DNA from: Syntrophomonadaceae bacterium
Lineage (GTDB): Bacteria; Bacillota; Dethiobacteria; DTU022
DNA length: 38,299 nt
NCBI GenBank assembly: GCA_003553895.1
Contig: PWFM01000039.1
Coordinates: forward strand, 1-38,299
Direction: 5' to 3'
Of this stretch, positions 2,249 to 9,540 are shown piece after piece. Made by a program: the position numbers and the translations under genes. Under the pieces are notes generated by a model. The model was not told the DNA's origin. It made no database searches and saw nothing but the letters and a program-made list of their open reading frames with translations. Numbering within the stretch: position 1 is the first letter of the stretch; each line of letters begins with the position of its first letter.

Positions 2249-2740
2249 TTGAGCAGTGAGGCTGAGGTTGCGGCCGTCAACCAGGACATCGATTTGAGCC
2301 AGGTCGATTCGATTATCGAACCGTACCTGGGAAGGAAAGAAATGGTCATCCCAATTTTGCAAAAAGTGCAGGAACATTTCGGCTACCTGCCGCGCCCGGC
2401 AATGGAACATGTATCCCGCCGGATGCGTATCCCTCTTAGCCGTCTTTACGGTGTTACCACGTTTTATGCCCAGTTTAAATTAAAGCCCCGGGGGCGAAAC
2501 ATTATCAGGGTCTGTAAAGGCACGGCCTGCCACATCCAGGGCAGCCCGAAGATATCCGAAAGGATCGAGGAAATCCTGGATGTAGAAAGCGGCGACACTA
2601 CCGAGGACTTGAGGTTTACCCTGGAAGAAGTAGCCTGTATCGGGTGCTGCGCGCTGGCGCCGGTTATCATGATCAATGACGACCCGCATGGACGGTTAAC
2701 GCCGGACAAGGTTAAAGATATTCTGGAAAGTTATGAATAA
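2249..2740 (+). CDS. NuoE/HydC-like [2Fe-2S] subunit (NADH-dependent oxidoreductase 24 kDa-type)
   Basis: Thioredoxin-like [2Fe-2S] Cys pattern: VCKGTACHIQG...VACIGCCALAPVIMIND; RBS aaggagg upstream. Confidence 0.93.
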   Translation: MSSEAEVAAVNQDIDLSQVDSIIEPYLGRKEMVIPILQKVQEHFGYLPRPAMEHVSRRMRIPLSRLYGVTTFYAQFKLKPRGRNIIRVCKGTACHIQGSPKISERIEEILDVESGDTTEDLRFTLEEVACIGCCALAPVIMINDDPHGRLTPDKVKDILESYE

Positions 2741-2757
2741 AAATAGGAGGTATCCCG

Positions 2758-2937
2758 ATGGAGAAGTTTCTTGATCCTTGTTGTGAAAAATGCACCCATA
2801 GCAAGGACACTCCTTGTAAAGATTTTGTGGACTGCTGCGTGGAAGGTCCCATCTGCCATGAAAATCAAGAATGTGCCGATAAACGCAAAGCTATTATTGA
2901 AAAAGTAGCCCTGGACGAAAAATTTGTAATCAGTTAA
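2758..2937 (+). CDS. Small cysteine-rich protein (59 aa, 8 Cys); not in the supplied ORF track
   Basis: ATG 2758 to TAA 2935-2937, preceded by aataggaggtatcccg. Translation MEKFLDPCCEKCTHSKDTPCKDFVDCCVEGPICHENQECADKRKAIIEKVALDEKFVIS. Lies between the NuoE-like and NuoF-like genes. Confidence 0.8.
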   Translation: MEKFLDPCCEKCTHSKDTPCKDFVDCCVEGPICHENQECADKRKAIIEKVALDEKFVIS

Positions 2938-2971
2938 CGGACTTGACCAGGGAAAGGGAGGTTAGAGGCTA

Positions 2972-4789
2972 TTGTACGAGAAACACATAATGATTTGCGG
3001 AGCTACGGGCTGTCTGTCTTCGGGTTCAAACCAGATCGCGGAAGCTTTGACTGAAGAACTTGAAAGCCGGGGAATTAGAGATAAATACCGCCTGGTCATG
3101 GGAGGGTGCCCCGGATTCTGCGAGGTTGGCCCCATCATCGTGATTTACCCTGATGAAGTTTTCTACTGCCGCCTGAAGACAAAAGATATGGCCGAGCTGG
3201 TAGAACAGCACCTGATCGGTGGAGAAATAGTTGAACGCCTGCTTTACAAGGGCCCGGATGTGGACGCGCCGGCCCGTTTTTACGACACCATCCCCTTTTA
3301 TTCCAAGCAGAAATTTAATGTTCTGCGCAACAGCGGGGTTATTGACCCGGAGAGCATCGACGAGTATATTATGCGCGGCGGATACCGGGCCCTGAGACGC
3401 GCCCTCCAGATGGATTCTCAGGCCATCTGCGACGAAGTCAAGGATGCCGGTTTGCGCGGCCGCGGCGGCGCCGGTTTCCCGACCGGCATTAAGTGGGGTT
3501 TTACCAATAAAGCCCCCGGTCCCAAGAAGTATATCGTTTGCAACGCCGACGAAGGCGACCCCGGGGCCTTCATGGACCGCAGTATCCTCGAAGGCGATCC
3601 TCATGCCATCATTGAAGGGATGCTGATTGCCGGAAAAGCCTGCGGGGCCGATGAAGGATATATTTACTGCCGGGCTGAATACCCGTTAGCGATTAAAAGA
3701 CTCAGGGACGCCATCAAGCAGGCGGAAGATTACGGCCTGCTGGGCAGCAACATTCTTGACTCCGGCTTTAATTTTAAAATGAATATTAAAGAAGGGGCGG
3801 GAGCTTTTGTCTGCGGCGAAGAGACGGCGCTCCTGGCTTCCATTGAAGGGAAGAGGGGCATGCCCCGTCCCCGGCCGCCCTTCCCGGCCCAGGTGGGCGT
3901 ATTTGGCAAACCGACCACCATCAACAACGTGGAAACCTTTGCCAACGTTCCCCTGATTGTAAAAGAAGGGGGAGCAGAGGAATTTAAGAAAGTCGGGACT
4001 GAAGGCAGCAAGGGGACCAAGGTATTTGCCCTGGCCGGCAAAGTTCGCAATACCGGTCTGGTCGAAGTCCCCATGGGCATCACCATCGAAGAAATTATAT
4101 TCGATGTCGGCGGCGGTATCCAGGGCGGCCGGGAATTTAAGGCAGTCCAGGCCGGCGGGCCTTCAGGGGGATGTATTCCCCAGGACCTGATCAACCTGCC
4201 CATTGACTACGATTCCCTGACCCAGGCCGGAGCAATCATGGGATCCGGCGGCCTGGTGGTCATGGACGACCGGACCTGTATGGTCGACCTGGCCAACTAC
4301 TTCTTGAGTTTTACCCAGAAAGAATCCTGTGGCAAGTGCACCCCCTGCCGGGAAGGGACCAAGCGGATGCTTGAGATTCTCGACCGGATCACCGAGGGGG
4401 AAGGAAAGCCGGAAGACCTCGATACGCTGGACAGCCTGGCCCACAGTATCAAGGACAGCGCCCTCTGCGGCCTGGGGCAGACCTGCCCCAACCCGGTTTT
4501 AACCACGATTCGCTACTTCCGCCATGAATATGAAGAGCATATTAATGAAGGTTACTGCCGTTCCGGGATCTGCAAACCCCTGTTCCAGTACTTGATCGAC
4601 CAGGAGAATTGTACCGGCTGCCGGGCCTGCGTCAGGGTTTGCCCGGTGGAAGCGATCAAGGGCGAAAAGAAAGAGCCCCATGAAATCATCCAGGACCTGT
4701 GCACCCGCTGCGGCAGTTGTATAGAAAAATGCCGCCAGGATTGCATTATGATTACTCGTGTAGGGAGTGAAGCTGATGTCGGCAATTAA
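2972..4789 (+). CDS. NuoF/HydB-like flavoprotein subunit with N-terminal [2Fe-2S] domain and C-terminal 2x[4Fe-4S] ferredoxin domain
   Basis: TTG start after ggagg; GLRGRGGAGFPTGIKWGF (FMN site), ESCGKCTPCREG, and C-terminal CTGCRACVRVCPVEAIKG...CTRCGSCIEKCRQDCI. Confidence 0.94.
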   Translation: MYEKHIMICGATGCLSSGSNQIAEALTEELESRGIRDKYRLVMGGCPGFCEVGPIIVIYPDEVFYCRLKTKDMAELVEQHLIGGEIVERLLYKGPDVDAPARFYDTIPFYSKQKFNVLRNSGVIDPESIDEYIMRGGYRALRRALQMDSQAICDEVKDAGLRGRGGAGFPTGIKWGFTNKAPGPKKYIVCNADEGDPGAFMDRSILEGDPHAIIEGMLIAGKACGADEGYIYCRAEYPLAIKRLRDAIKQAEDYGLLGSNILDSGFNFKMNIKEGAGAFVCGEETALLASIEGKRGMPRPRPPFPAQVGVFGKPTTINNVETFANVPLIVKEGGAEEFKKVGTEGSKGTKVFALAGKVRNTGLVEVPMGITIEEIIFDVGGGIQGGREFKAVQAGGPSGGCIPQDLINLPIDYDSLTQAGAIMGSGGLVVMDDRTCMVDLANYFLSFTQKESCGKCTPCREGTKRMLEILDRITEGEGKPEDLDTLDSLAHSIKDSALCGLGQTCPNPVLTTIRYFRHEYEEHINEGYCRSGICKPLFQYLIDQENCTGCRACVRVCPVEAIKGEKKEPHEIIQDLCTRCGSCIEKCRQDCIMITRVGSEADVGN

Positions 4790-7223
4790 ATTAACCATAG
4801 ACGGACAAGAGATCGAGGTGGCTCCCGGTACGACGATTCTCGAAGCCGCCCGGCAGCTCGGGATCGACATTCCGACTTTTTGCCACGACCCCGAACTGCC
4901 CCCCAACGGGGCCTGCCGCATTTGCGTGGTCGAAGTGGAAAAAGCCCGGGCCCTGGTGGCTTCCTGTGTGGCTCCTGTCGGCCCGGACATGGTCGTCCAT
5001 ACCGAATCGGAGCGGGGGGTTAAGGCCCGGAAAAACAACCTGAGCCTGATGCTGGCCAATCACCCCCTGGATTGCATTACCTGCGAAAAAACTGGTGAAT
5101 GCAAGCTTCAGGATTATTGCTATCGTTACGGGGTAGCCAGCACCGAGTTTGAGGGTGAGGTTAAAAACCTGCCCTATGACGATACCAACGAATTTTTCCT
5201 GCGCGATATGAACAAATGTATCCTCTGCGGTATCTGTGTCGGTAAAGACCAGCTGGTAGTGGGGGCCGGCGCGATCGATTTTTCGAAGCGCGGGTTTACT
5301 ACCAATGTCAGCCCCGGATTTGAAGATCCGATCGAAGAATCATCCTGCGTTTTCTGCGGGATGTGCATAGACAACTGCCCGGTAGGGGCCCTGATTCCCA
5401 AGTATGTGACCGGCAAGGGGCGTCCCTGGCAGACCGAAAGCGTGCCTGCAGTATGCCCTTACTGCAGCCTTGGTTGTAATATAAACCTGCACGTCAAGGA
5501 CAATGAAGTAATCGGGGTCAGCCCCGTTATGGAAAGCCCGGTTAACCGCGGCCATCTCTGCGTGCAGGGCAAATTCGGCTGGGACTTCGTTCACAGCGGC
5601 GACAGGGTTACCGCGCCGATGGTGAAAACTAACGGGGTTTTCGTCGAAGTCAGCTGGGAAGAAGCGCTCGATTACATTGTTGACAATATTAAGGAAATCC
5701 AGTCCCGTTACGGGGCCGATGCCCTGATGGGCCTGAGTTCACCCAAGATCAGCAATGAAGAGAGCTACCTCTTCCAGAAGCTGGTCCGATCCCTGGGCAC
5801 CAACAACGTGGACAGCTACAGCAAACACTGCCACGCCTCTGCGGTGGACGGGATGATGGACGCTTTTGGCAATGCCGCCACCACCAACAGCATTAACGAA
5901 GTAGCGGCTACAGGTGCGGTCCTGGTCATCGGGTCCAACCCGGCGGAAAGCCATCCGATCCTTGACTACCGGGTTCGCGAAGCGGCCCGTAACGGCGCCG
6001 AACTTATCATTGCCACTCCCGACACGATCGGGCTGGTAGATGTATCAACGGCGTACCTGCCCCTTAAAGAAGGCACGGAAGTGGCCCTGCTGAATGCTAT
6101 GGCCAATGTTATTATCAGCGAAGGTCTGCATGACCAGGACTTTGTTGATAAGAGGACCGAAGGCTTTGCAGAGCTTAAAAAAGCAGTCGATCAATACAGC
6201 CCCGCTTACGCCGCCGGGATCACCGGGCTGGGCGAAGAAGAAATCCGTTCTGCCGCCCGGGCTTACGCTTCCGCTGAAAAAGCGGTAATAGTTAGTGATG
6301 CCTGCGCTGGTGAATATATCGGTGGCGCCGATTTTGTCCGGGCCCTGGCCAACCTGGCCATGCTGACCGGCAACGTGGGCAAAGAAGCGACCGGCGTCTA
6401 CGTGCCCTACGGGGAAAACAACCTCCAGGGTATGACCGACATGGGCGTGCTGCCCAACATCGCGACCGGTTACCAGCACCTCAAGGAGAAAGCGGTCCGG
6501 GATAAGTTTTCCAAAGCCTGGGGCGTTGAAATCAGCGAAACCCCCGGTATGACCGTTGCGGAAGCCTTTGCCGGAGGAAAGAATACCTCGATTAAGGCCA
6601 TGTATATCATGGGTGAAAATCCGGTAACCTGCGGAGGAGGAAGTCCGGAGGTGGTTGATTACCTGAATAACCTTGAATTCCTGGTAGTTCAGGACATCTT
6701 TATGACCGAAACGGCCGCTCTTGCCGATGTAGTGCTCCCGCAAGCGGCATTTGCTGAAAAGCTGGGCACCTATACCAACACCGAACGAAGGGTGCAGCTC
6801 AGCCAGCCCGCCCTGGAACCCCCGGGAGAAGTTTTTCCCGATTGGGCCGTCCTGGTCGAACTGGCCGAATGGCTGGGGTTTGAATGGGACTATGCCGGGC
6901 CGGAGGAAATATTTGAGGAAATAGCCTCCCTGACGCCCGACTACAGCGGGATCTCCTATCAACGTCTGGCCGAGGAGGGTCTGCAGTGGCCCTGTCCGGA
7001 CGCAGACCATCCGGGTACAAAGTTCCTGCACGAAGAGGAATTCAGCCGCGGCAAAGGACTCTTAAGCGCAGTGGCTTACAAGCCGGAAGCGCTGCCGGTC
7101 AAAGGCGGGCATGCCGCTGTTTCTACTACCGGCGCTTATCCCGTATGCCAGTGCTTGAGCGAGAGCCTGAGCAAGCGCTCTGTGATCAAGGCTTTTAAAC
7201 AGGCTGCCCTTTCCGGCAGTTAA
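4776..7223 (+). CDS. NuoG/FdhA-like molybdopterin oxidoreductase (formate dehydrogenase alpha-like; substrate uncertain)
   Basis: [2Fe-2S] CHDPELPPNGACRICVVEV; NHPLDCITCEKTGECKLQDYC; ferredoxin-like region; VCPYCSLGCNINL cluster motif; KHCHASA at the Cys/Sec site; GENNLQGMTDMG. ORF track start is 4767; an internal ATG (MSAIKL) lies at 4776. Confidence 0.9.
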   Translation: MSAIKLTIDGQEIEVAPGTTILEAARQLGIDIPTFCHDPELPPNGACRICVVEVEKARALVASCVAPVGPDMVVHTESERGVKARKNNLSLMLANHPLDCITCEKTGECKLQDYCYRYGVASTEFEGEVKNLPYDDTNEFFLRDMNKCILCGICVGKDQLVVGAGAIDFSKRGFTTNVSPGFEDPIEESSCVFCGMCIDNCPVGALIPKYVTGKGRPWQTESVPAVCPYCSLGCNINLHVKDNEVIGVSPVMESPVNRGHLCVQGKFGWDFVHSGDRVTAPMVKTNGVFVEVSWEEALDYIVDNIKEIQSRYGADALMGLSSPKISNEESYLFQKLVRSLGTNNVDSYSKHCHASAVDGMMDAFGNAATTNSINEVAATGAVLVIGSNPAESHPILDYRVREAARNGAELIIATPDTIGLVDVSTAYLPLKEGTEVALLNAMANVIISEGLHDQDFVDKRTEGFAELKKAVDQYSPAYAAGITGLGEEEIRSAARAYASAEKAVIVSDACAGEYIGGADFVRALANLAMLTGNVGKEATGVYVPYGENNLQGMTDMGVLPNIATGYQHLKEKAVRDKFSKAWGVEISETPGMTVAEAFAGGKNTSIKAMYIMGENPVTCGGGSPEVVDYLNNLEFLVVQDIFMTETAALADVVLPQAAFAEKLGTYTNTERRVQLSQPALEPPGEVFPDWAVLVELAEWLGFEWDYAGPEEIFEEIASLTPDYSGISYQRLAEEGLQWPCPDADHPGTKFLHEEEFSRGKGLLSAVAYKPEALPVKGGHAAVSTTGAYPVCQCLSESLSKRSVIKAFKQAALSGS

Positions 7224-7279: not shown

Positions 7280-7361
7280 CTGCAGGAAACCGTCCTCACC
7301 GCGCAGAATAAAACATACAACCAAACGCTTAGCATACTTGCGCCGGCAGGAGGGGGCTAAT

Positions 7362-8714
7362 ATGTCAAGATATCATTTTCCCGATCATTTCATCTGGGGA
7401 GCGGCCACTTCATCTTATCAAATCGAAGGGGCTCCCGAAGCTGACGGCAAGGGTGAATCAATCTGGGATCGGTTTACCCGGTCCGGTGGCAATATCCTGG
7501 ATAACGCCACCGGAGATATTGCCTGTGACCATTACCGGCGCTATGAAGAAGACGGGCAATTGATGGCCGGACTGGGCCTCCAGGCCTACCGTTTCTCTAT
7601 TTCCTGGCCGCGCCTCTTCCCGGAAGGCGGCGGCAGGCCGAACAAAAAGGGCCTCGATTTTTACCGGCGGCTGGTTGATCAACTGCAGGGCTTCAATATT
7701 GCCCCTTTCGCAACCCTGTATCACTGGGATTTACCGCAGGCCCTGCAGGACAAAGGCGGCTGGACCAACCGGGATACGGCCAAATATTTTGCTGAATATG
7801 CCGCTTTTACATTTGAAAACCTTGATCTGCCGGTCCGGGGTTGGATTACTATCAATGAACCGTGGGTTGCCGCCTTTCTGGGCCACGCCATGGGCCTCCA
7901 TGCTCCCGGCTGGACCGACTTCAACCTGGCCCTGGCCGCTGCTCATAACCTGCTGCTCGGCCACGGATTGGCGGCGCAAAGATTCAGGGAGCAGGGGCGT
8001 AAAGACGAAGAAATCGGGATAGCCCTTAACCTCGCGCCCATTCCCCCCTTTTCTGAATCTGAAGAAGACCGGGCTGCAGCCAGGCGGACGGACGGCTTTA
8101 TGAATCGCTGGTTTCTAGATCCCCTCCTGGAAGGCGCCTACCCCCAGGATATGGTCGACCTCTACAGGCGTCATTTTACACTGCCCCCGGTGGAGGAAGG
8201 GGACATGGAAATAATTGGCGGCCCGCTCGATTTTTTGGGGATCAATAACTATACCAGGCATGTAGTAAGGGCCGGCGATTCAGAAAGCGACTTGACCGGC
8301 AATTTTGTCAACCCTCCAGAAAGTGAATATACGGAGATGGGTTGGGAAGTATATCCGCGGGGCCTTTATGAGCTTCTAAGCAGGATTGGGCGGGACTACG
8401 GGCCTATTCCTCTTTACATAACCGAAAACGGGGCCTCCTTTCCGGATCAGCTGGAAGAGGACGGAACCGTAAATGACCAGGCCAGGATTAACTACCTGCA
8501 AAGTTATATTTTTGAAGCATGGCAGGCGCTCGAAGAAGGAGCCCCTCTCAAGGGCTACTTTGTCTGGTCGCTTATGGATAATTTTGAATGGACTTTTGGC
8601 TACAGCAAGCGTTTTGGCCTCATTTATATTGATTACCAAACCCTGGAACGGCGCTGGAAAAATAGCGCTTACTGGTACAGAAAGGGGATCAGCCGAAACG
8701 GCCTTGACTTATAA
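7362..8714 (+). CDS. Beta-glucosidase, glycoside hydrolase family 1
   Basis: MSRYHFPDHFIWGAATSSYQIEGA; TINEPW (acid/base) and YITENGASF (nucleophile) motifs; RBS aggaggggg before ATG 7362. Confidence 0.96.
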   Translation: MSRYHFPDHFIWGAATSSYQIEGAPEADGKGESIWDRFTRSGGNILDNATGDIACDHYRRYEEDGQLMAGLGLQAYRFSISWPRLFPEGGGRPNKKGLDFYRRLVDQLQGFNIAPFATLYHWDLPQALQDKGGWTNRDTAKYFAEYAAFTFENLDLPVRGWITINEPWVAAFLGHAMGLHAPGWTDFNLALAAAHNLLLGHGLAAQRFREQGRKDEEIGIALNLAPIPPFSESEEDRAAARRTDGFMNRWFLDPLLEGAYPQDMVDLYRRHFTLPPVEEGDMEIIGGPLDFLGINNYTRHVVRAGDSESDLTGNFVNPPESEYTEMGWEVYPRGLYELLSRIGRDYGPIPLYITENGASFPDQLEEDGTVNDQARINYLQSYIFEAWQALEEGAPLKGYFVWSLMDNFEWTFGYSKRFGLIYIDYQTLERRWKNSAYWYRKGISRNGLDL

Positions 8715-8754: not shown

Positions 8755-9540
8755 GTGGACCGGAACCGAACCGCGCCGGTGGAAATCATTAGAATCCGCC
8801 AGGGGGAGCATGAAAAAGTAGATGACCTGGTAACGATTGAAGCGCCGGTTACTATCTACCTGAATGGCGCTGAACTGGTTACCCTTCTCTGCACACCGGA
8901 AAAACTGGAGTTCCTGGCCCTCGGCTTCCTGCGTTCCGAAGGGCTCCTTTCCGAAATGGCGGACCTGGAATCGATCCGGGTCAGGGAAGAAGAAGGCCTG
9001 ATTGAGGTTGATTTGAAAAAAGGGGCCGGTCTTGCTGAAAAGCTCTATGGCAAAAGGACTGTGACTTCAGGCTGCGGCAAGGGCACGGTTTTCTTCAACG
9101 CCCTTGATTCCCTGCGCAGCAACCCCCTGACCGGAAAACTGCAGGTCAGCGCCGAAACAGCAATCGGATTGATGAGCTCTTTGCAGGAAAAAGCGGAATT
9201 GTATAAAGCTACCGGCGGGGTCCACAGCGCCGCTTTGGCCGACCAGGATCAGATCCTCTATTTTTGCGAAGATATCGGCCGCCACAATGCCATCGATAAA
9301 ATAGTGGGCCAGTGCCTGCGGGAAGGCATATCTACCGAAGATAAAATTATCGTCTCCAGCGGACGCCTCAGTTCGGAAATCCTGCTCAAATCGGCCAAGT
9401 TGAAAATTCAACTGCTCATCTCCCGGGCAGCGCCCACTTCGCTGTGCTTAGAACTGGCCCGAAACTTAAACATCACCCTGATCGGCTTTGCCCGGGGCAA
9501 ACGCTTAAACATCTATACCCACAGCTGGAGAATACTCTAG
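8755..9540 (+). CDS. fdhD: FdhD, sulfurtransferase required for formate dehydrogenase maturation
   Basis: VTSGCGKGTVFF, ATGGVHSAALA, CEDIGRHNAIDKIVG, SSGRLSSEILLKSAKLKIQLLISRAAPTSL. Confidence 0.94.
   Translation: MDRNRTAPVEIIRIRQGEHEKVDDLVTIEAPVTIYLNGAELVTLLCTPEKLEFLALGFLRSEGLLSEMADLESIRVREEEGLIEVDLKKGAGLAEKLYGKRTVTSGCGKGTVFFNALDSLRSNPLTGKLQVSAETAIGLMSSLQEKAELYKATGGVHSAALADQDQILYFCEDIGRHNAIDKIVGQCLREGISTEDKIIVSSGRLSSEILLKSAKLKIQLLISRAAPTSLCLELARNLNITLIGFARGKRLNIYTHSWRIL

Follow-up and report, generated by a model that had tools for sequence, protein, structure and literature searches.

The window, the whole 38,299-nt stretch of Syntrophomonadaceae bacterium DNA that was analysed, carries on its forward strand an operon in which a short gene lies between nuoE and nuoF. 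The first of these flanking genes, at 2249..2740, encodes a 163-aa NuoE/BfuC-like subunit (PF01257, E = 5.5e-53; NCBIfam NuoE), and the second, at 2972..4789, encodes a 605-aa NuoF/BfuB-like subunit from a TTG start, as judged from Pfam and NCBIfam matches and from ligand conservation over 73 proteins. The short gene occupies 2758..2937 on the same strand, 17 nt from nuoE and 34 nt from nuoF, and encodes a separate 59-aa polypeptide with an ATG start and its own stop at 2935–2937. A ribosome-binding site, AGGAGG (2745..2750, +), lies 7 nt 5′ of this ATG and another, AGGGAGG (2955..2961, +), precedes nuoF, both being read directly from the sequence. An earlier note on this DNA had reported the peptide, the AGGAGG, a layout of eight cysteines and the nuoE and nuoF flanks exactly as they were found here. 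That layout (CC-x2-C, C-x5-CC, C-x5-C) was found a single time in the window, and 100 dinucleotide shuffles gave no instance of it.

The operon continues with a gene at 4767..7223 (+) for an 818-aa protein in which a BfuA-like subunit is joined to an FDH-like molybdopterin domain, identified with Pfam and NCBIfam and by alignment with Sec-FDH paralogues. A GH1 β-glucosidase gene (7338–8714) separates the operon from fdhD (8755..9540, +; PF02634, E = 1.1e-84), which encodes a sulfurtransferase for FDH-type Mo/W enzymes. The β-glucosidase gene is also found between the FDH-like gene and fdhD at four other loci (L179, L183, L185 and L187), an arrangement that is conserved and functionally odd.

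The ORF at 2758–2937 is a genuine gene under selection and not a chance frame. Homologues were found in 44 of 60 related genomes and, within the window's class, in 54 of 98, where the matched frames are short. Stand-alone homologues in the extracted set measure 59 codons from start to stop and begin with ATG, GTG or TTG; one longer homologue of about 61 codons was noticed (L289 of genome G382). Purine-rich sites comparable to AGGAGG precede the homologues, and in many relatives a GGGAGGT site similar to that of the window lies just 5′ of nuoF. Comparison with congeners gave dN/dS values of 0.05–0.13, synonymous changes being far in excess, and the gene is thus under purifying selection. Shortness of the frame and the lack of a Pfam match are what would be expected of a spurious small ORF, but homologues of constant length with their own starts and ribosome-binding sites, these dN/dS values and the NCBIfam match described below led us to reject a chance ORF, a reading that now has almost no probability. 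Syntenic conservation in relatives, which had been named beforehand as a refuting test, was examined and the locus proved to be conserved, with the order nuoE–prefix–nuoF–fdhA-like in all 20 relatives examined. A programmed frameshift or read-through joining the short gene to nuoF was also considered and found no support, because each gene has a start and a ribosome-binding site of its own and the distance between the two varies among loci.

For assignment to a family, the match to a profile was considered together with conservation, length, dN/dS and an AF2 model, and together these point to a stand-alone CCxxC NuoF-prefix gene. By hmmscan, the protein matches NCBIfam NF040902 (NuoF_pre_CCxxC, 'CCxxC motif-containing NuoF prefix domain') with 69.8 bits (E = 1.3e-19, positions 1–52 of 53) against a curated cut-off of 45 bits, and the same match is present in fused relatives. 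The earlier note's description of the protein as unannotated does not hold at the level of the family, which is already curated, though with no function assigned to it. The protein resembles other members in having the same domain above the cut-off, the CCxxC motif and all invariant residues, and in adjoining NuoF, but the family takes its name from a position at the front of NuoF, whereas in the window a distinct gene, with a ribosome-binding site of its own, encodes the 59-aa form. Score and CCxxC motif thus place it in NF040902, while location on the same polypeptide as NuoF does not apply. The window protein is a member of the NF040902 domain family with a split architecture.

In the 56 homologues that similarity or HMM searches recovered, C8, C9, C12, C20, C26, C33, H34 and C39 are invariant, and G30 and P31 are likewise listed among the invariant residues of the prefix protein. 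H14 is present in 53 of the 56; position 27 is variable (Cys in 31, Arg in 20, Ala in 3 and Leu in 2). The CCxxC residues C8, C9 and C12 are also invariant in 30 and in 80 aligned sequences, the larger alignment being partly pattern-selected; the pattern-based set could not be used for counting residue invariance because the pattern itself required those residues. All eight cysteines of the layout described earlier are therefore present in the window, but C27 is not conserved and the other seven are. Seven cysteines and one histidine provide eight candidate ligands, enough for two four-coordinate sites, in line with the metal binding that had been suggested for this peptide; judged from this conservation, it is very likely that the protein binds metal, with these residues as candidate ligands only.

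Searches for other relatives returned little. Pfam gave no match for the prefix protein or for 30 members, the PDB gave none to the prefix protein by sequence or by profile, and Foldseek with the 59-aa model found no PDB fold match. A weak PDB match to 8SEM (E = 0.18), which might have pointed to a toxin- or venom-like peptide, was rejected as a chance match of cysteines. No matches to the prefix protein were seen among viral contigs or among plasmids, and no papers were found that name NF040902, 'NuoF prefix domain' or CCxxC together with NuoF.

Elsewhere, the domain forms the N terminus of a NuoF/HydB-type protein of ∼650 aa in 18 or more phyla, some of them archaeal. When the cysteine layout was searched as a DNA pattern, at least 118 loci matched; they span at least 18 phyla, Thermoproteota and other archaea among them, and in the pattern matches listed the domain is fused everywhere except in the window's Bacillota lineage. 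In 300 genomes of the phylum, NF040902 was found above its cut-off in 28, and outside the window's order nearly all of these matches lay at the N terminus of a NuoF-like protein of ∼650 aa; Clostridia outside the window's class have the fused form. Among the matches listed, the stand-alone form was confined to the window's class, in soda-lake MAGs labelled 'Syntrophomonadaceae' and in a relative of Dethiobacter, and it always lay between nuoE and nuoF. NuoE precedes the prefix in 108 of 109 loci among those listed, and BfuB follows it in 97 of 98 untruncated ones, the sole exception (L117) having a BfuB broken by a frame disruption. From C39 to the first cysteine of the thioredoxin-like B5 domain there are 24–25 residues in fused proteins and, over the two proteins of the window, 20 + 9 = 29; the split therefore falls in the short linker between prefix and B5. 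The gene accordingly encodes, as a separate polypeptide, the BfuB (NuoF) prefix domain that elsewhere makes up BfuB residues 1–56.

Apparent NuoE–prefix–NuoF triple fusions of ∼800 aa were rejected because their extra N-terminal sequence is off-frame nuoE DNA. At two further loci (L278 and L281, in genomes G236 and G260), prefix and NuoF lie in a frame of 1086–1128 aa, followed by a BfuA-like frame of ∼1080 aa that contains an apparent NuoE match, an unusual rearranged complex.

As most other microbes fuse the domain to the front of the subunit, it is probably a built-in part of the enzyme rather than a new system. An accessory subunit, as the earlier note had proposed, agrees well with a gene that always sits between nuoE and nuoF and with a domain that, in organisms beyond the window's class, belongs to the NuoF chain itself; with this arrangement the prefix protein is very probably a subunit of the complex. 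Its small size, its many cysteines, its position between both subunit genes and its lack in some close relatives would also suit a small chaperone that loads clusters or joins NuoE to NuoF and then leaves. However, a domain permanently fused to BfuB in no fewer than 18 phyla is what one would expect of a stoichiometric part, hence of a 1:1 structural component and not of a transient helper, so that an assembly or maturation factor, which had been another of the suggestions made for this gene, is highly improbable.

The complex itself was next assigned from the ligands of its subunits. In the window, NuoF comprises a thioredoxin-like [2Fe-2S] domain (B5; C9/C14/C46/C50), an FMN domain, B1 (C453/C456/C459/C499), B2 (C436, H523, C529 and C534) and two C-terminal [4Fe-4S] sites (B3 and B4; two Fer4), and NuoE has the C1 [2Fe-2S] site of BfuC, with its C-x4-C and C-x3-C pairs (2Fe-2S_thioredx, E = 5.5e-53). 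Across 73 aligned prefix-bearing NuoF proteins, one of which is incomplete, the B1–B4 ligands, including the B2 histidine, are kept apart from occasional gaps or single substitutions, and the second cysteine pair of B5 is invariant. In L065, L090, L137 and other fused BfuB proteins, many of them non-clostridial, GMGTCG replaces C-x4-C in B5, which there consequently is without its usual four cysteine ligands. In the passages of PMC9304861 on the family, the B2 histidine and the B2–B5 set separate bifurcating from non-bifurcating homologues, and the Type 1 Fdh-Bfu enzymes of the Bfu (BfuABC/HydABC) family resemble the window in BfuC, in BfuB with B1–B5 ligands including the B2 histidine, in BfuA fused to a molybdopterin domain and in the operon order C–B–A. 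In those passages of the Bfu papers that deal with the family, no mention of the prefix was found. For the complex, which had been proposed to be NuoEFG/FdhA-like, a Bfu-type (HydABC-like), predicted bifurcating assignment fits better than plain NuoEFG. The window differs from Type 1 Fdh-Bfu in a Mo domain without the FDH catalytic Arg motif, and its bifurcation is a prediction.

The FDH-like partner has KHCHAS at the active-site Sec/Cys and His. In many relatives, fdhA has a single TGA in DHCARL-U-HAPTVAGL, marking a selenocysteine FDH. The window protein and four orthologues instead have Cys in the place of Sec, and they read PYGENNLQG against the canonical NPLRGQNNVQG, with Tyr in the column of the catalytic Arg (NPxRGQNNVQG), which corresponds to R333 of E. 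coli FdhF. The partner is FDH-like, but formate is a doubtful substrate because this Arg is absent, and the substrate of the protein encoded at 4767–7223 may not be formate. In the same protein, residues CILCGICVGKDQ have Asp in place of one [4Fe-4S]-motif Cys, where four orthologues have CVGKCQ; this is either a sequencing or assembly error or a true loss of the ligand. A second operon, for a canonical selenocysteine FDH, is present in several of the relatives. A comparable cluster, HUE98_04875–04895 of 'Ca. Contubernalis alkaliaceticus' (PMC10608574), has three NAD(P)H dehydrogenase subunit tags, an FDH and FdhD in an order that matches nuoE–prefix–nuoF–fdhA–fdhD of genome G382, but the small gene was not singled out there.

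The distribution of the prefix was examined on an unrooted tree of 81 BfuB proteins, obtained with a quick search and with two long-branch paralogues left out. The stand-alone form occupies one side of a single branch (100% SH-aLRT) and has a single origin, in the window's class. The split may have arisen by fission, given that the fused form is so much more widespread, on a tree that is unrooted and quickly searched. Along this tree, at least six changes between having and lacking the prefix are counted, and a constraint that placed the prefix-less proteins in one clade was rejected (p-AU = 0.015). Close BfuB relatives, 61–66% identical to that of the window, have no prefix, several of them with FDH partners, and the prefix is thus dispensable for the basic reaction. 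In the window genome, a single prefix gene stands against five BfuB-like genes besides the nuoF described here. Repeated gain or loss, prefix-less FDH operons and this single prefix gene together indicate an optional module.

Within the same genome, the selenocysteine-FDH operon L210 (G000:C174) has a NuoF that lacks the prefix and gives no recognisable match to a Trx domain, while relatives retain a 59-aa prefix gene at that place. Among prefix-less Clostridia (L249–L264), 9 of 20 operons have, ahead of nuoF, an additional small gene for a thioredoxin-like [2Fe-2S] protein, which was seen in none of the prefix loci examined; this may reflect shared ancestry, as all nine carriers fall in one clade of the tree.

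Such patchiness, together with the variety of partners of prefix-bearing BfuB (FDH-like, [FeFe]-hydrogenase and NiFe), could suggest a docking or regulatory module that, in certain organisms only, binds a specific ferredoxin or other partner or acts as a sensor of redox or metal state. However, the prefix showed no link to any single partner type or neighbouring gene, and it lies at the B5 end, away from the B3/B4 domain at the C terminus, for which a role in serving ferredoxin has been proposed; we consider a docking or regulatory role improbable. A role specific to FDH was rejected because prefix-bearing BfuB proteins have hydrogenase partners and prefix-less ones have FDH.

For structural comparison, AF2 models were obtained for the 59-aa protein (pLDDT 85; helices at 23–29 and 37–53) and for a natural fusion from Desulfofundulus australicus (pLDDT 91.4, pTM 0.90; prefix 93–95), in which the prefix has the same helices. 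The best solved relative of a fused representative is Acetomicrobium mobile HydB (7T2R, 978 bits), aligned from residue 57 on. This NiFe-HydB (7T2R/7T30) is the closest solved relative of the BfuB part, to which the BfuB chains of 7Q4V, 8A6T, 9BP5, 8OH5, 9N5U, 7P5H and 9MQX are also related; residues 1–56 have no counterpart in any of these chains. In the A. mobile enzyme, as described in the relevant passages of PMC8880783, the N-terminal (B5) domain of HydB contacts and stabilises the C-terminal domain of HydC, binding of FMN/NADH releases the HydB domain so that both turn flexible, and movement of the HydC domain was proposed as a gate for electrons to ferredoxin. Whether B5 lies on the electron path or is a dead end is disputed, according to passages of PMC11406978.

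Taking these observations together, our preferred explanation, with a probability of about 0.7, is that the split-off prefix is a metal-binding clamp subunit of the predicted bifurcating complex. The peptide would fold around one or two metal ions through C8, C9, C12, C20, C26, C33, H34 and C39 and would bind 1:1 to the N-terminal B5 domain of BfuB, beside BfuC. If, as in the A. mobile structure, B5 steadies the mobile cluster-bearing domain of BfuC, and if movement of that domain gates electron flow between FMN and the ferredoxin branch, a structural metal-knuckle clamp could position or stiffen the B5–BfuC gate of what is predicted to be an electron-bifurcating, NADH- and ferredoxin-linked FDH-like complex. 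A metal-held clamp is proposed because the prefix is attached to exactly the B5 domain implicated in gating; the specific role at B5–BfuC is tentative, its chances falling slightly short of even.

The main rival, close to the electron carrier that the earlier note had listed as an option, is a redox relay, in which the prefix would carry an extra Fe-S cluster near B5/C1 and so extend or tune the electron chain. Seven invariant cysteines in a subunit of an Fe-S-rich anaerobic enzyme, covalently adjoining the B5 [2Fe-2S] domain in fused forms, are consistent with a relay, although no Fe-S motif is recognised, Pfam and PDB give no match, and the adjacent C33–H34 and single CxxC would be unusual for a [4Fe-4S] site. 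The first B5 cysteine pair is replaced in 49 of the 73 prefix-bearing BfuB proteins, for which another centre could compensate, but in the window's class the prefix occurs together with an intact B5, and making up for a lost B5 ligand is therefore not its general purpose. On balance, a relay appears unlikely. A more far-reaching idea, which we also rate as unlikely, is that the bifurcating core has in the prefix a metal or redox module not recognised before; this module, possibly a Cys7-His1 site for two metals or an additional Fe-S centre at the B5–C1 gate, would tune or gate bifurcation.

Novelty is limited, as the domain is already curated; of interest are the split, stand-alone version and the breadth of a structurally unseen module on bifurcating enzymes. 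The case also suggests that small Cys-rich genes inside such operons can be real subunits that ORF cut-offs overlook. How Bfu enzymes split electrons at a single FMN, and whether B5 is a gate or a dead end, is debated, and a widespread, optional and probably metal-binding module on B5, absent from every solved structure found, offers a new handle on this. Being a small separate protein in the window's class, it could be removed, re-added or labelled without cutting NuoF. If the module reading is true, bifurcation would be tuned or gated in a large part of the Bfu family, in bacteria and archaea, and the window's class would represent a natural two-piece version.
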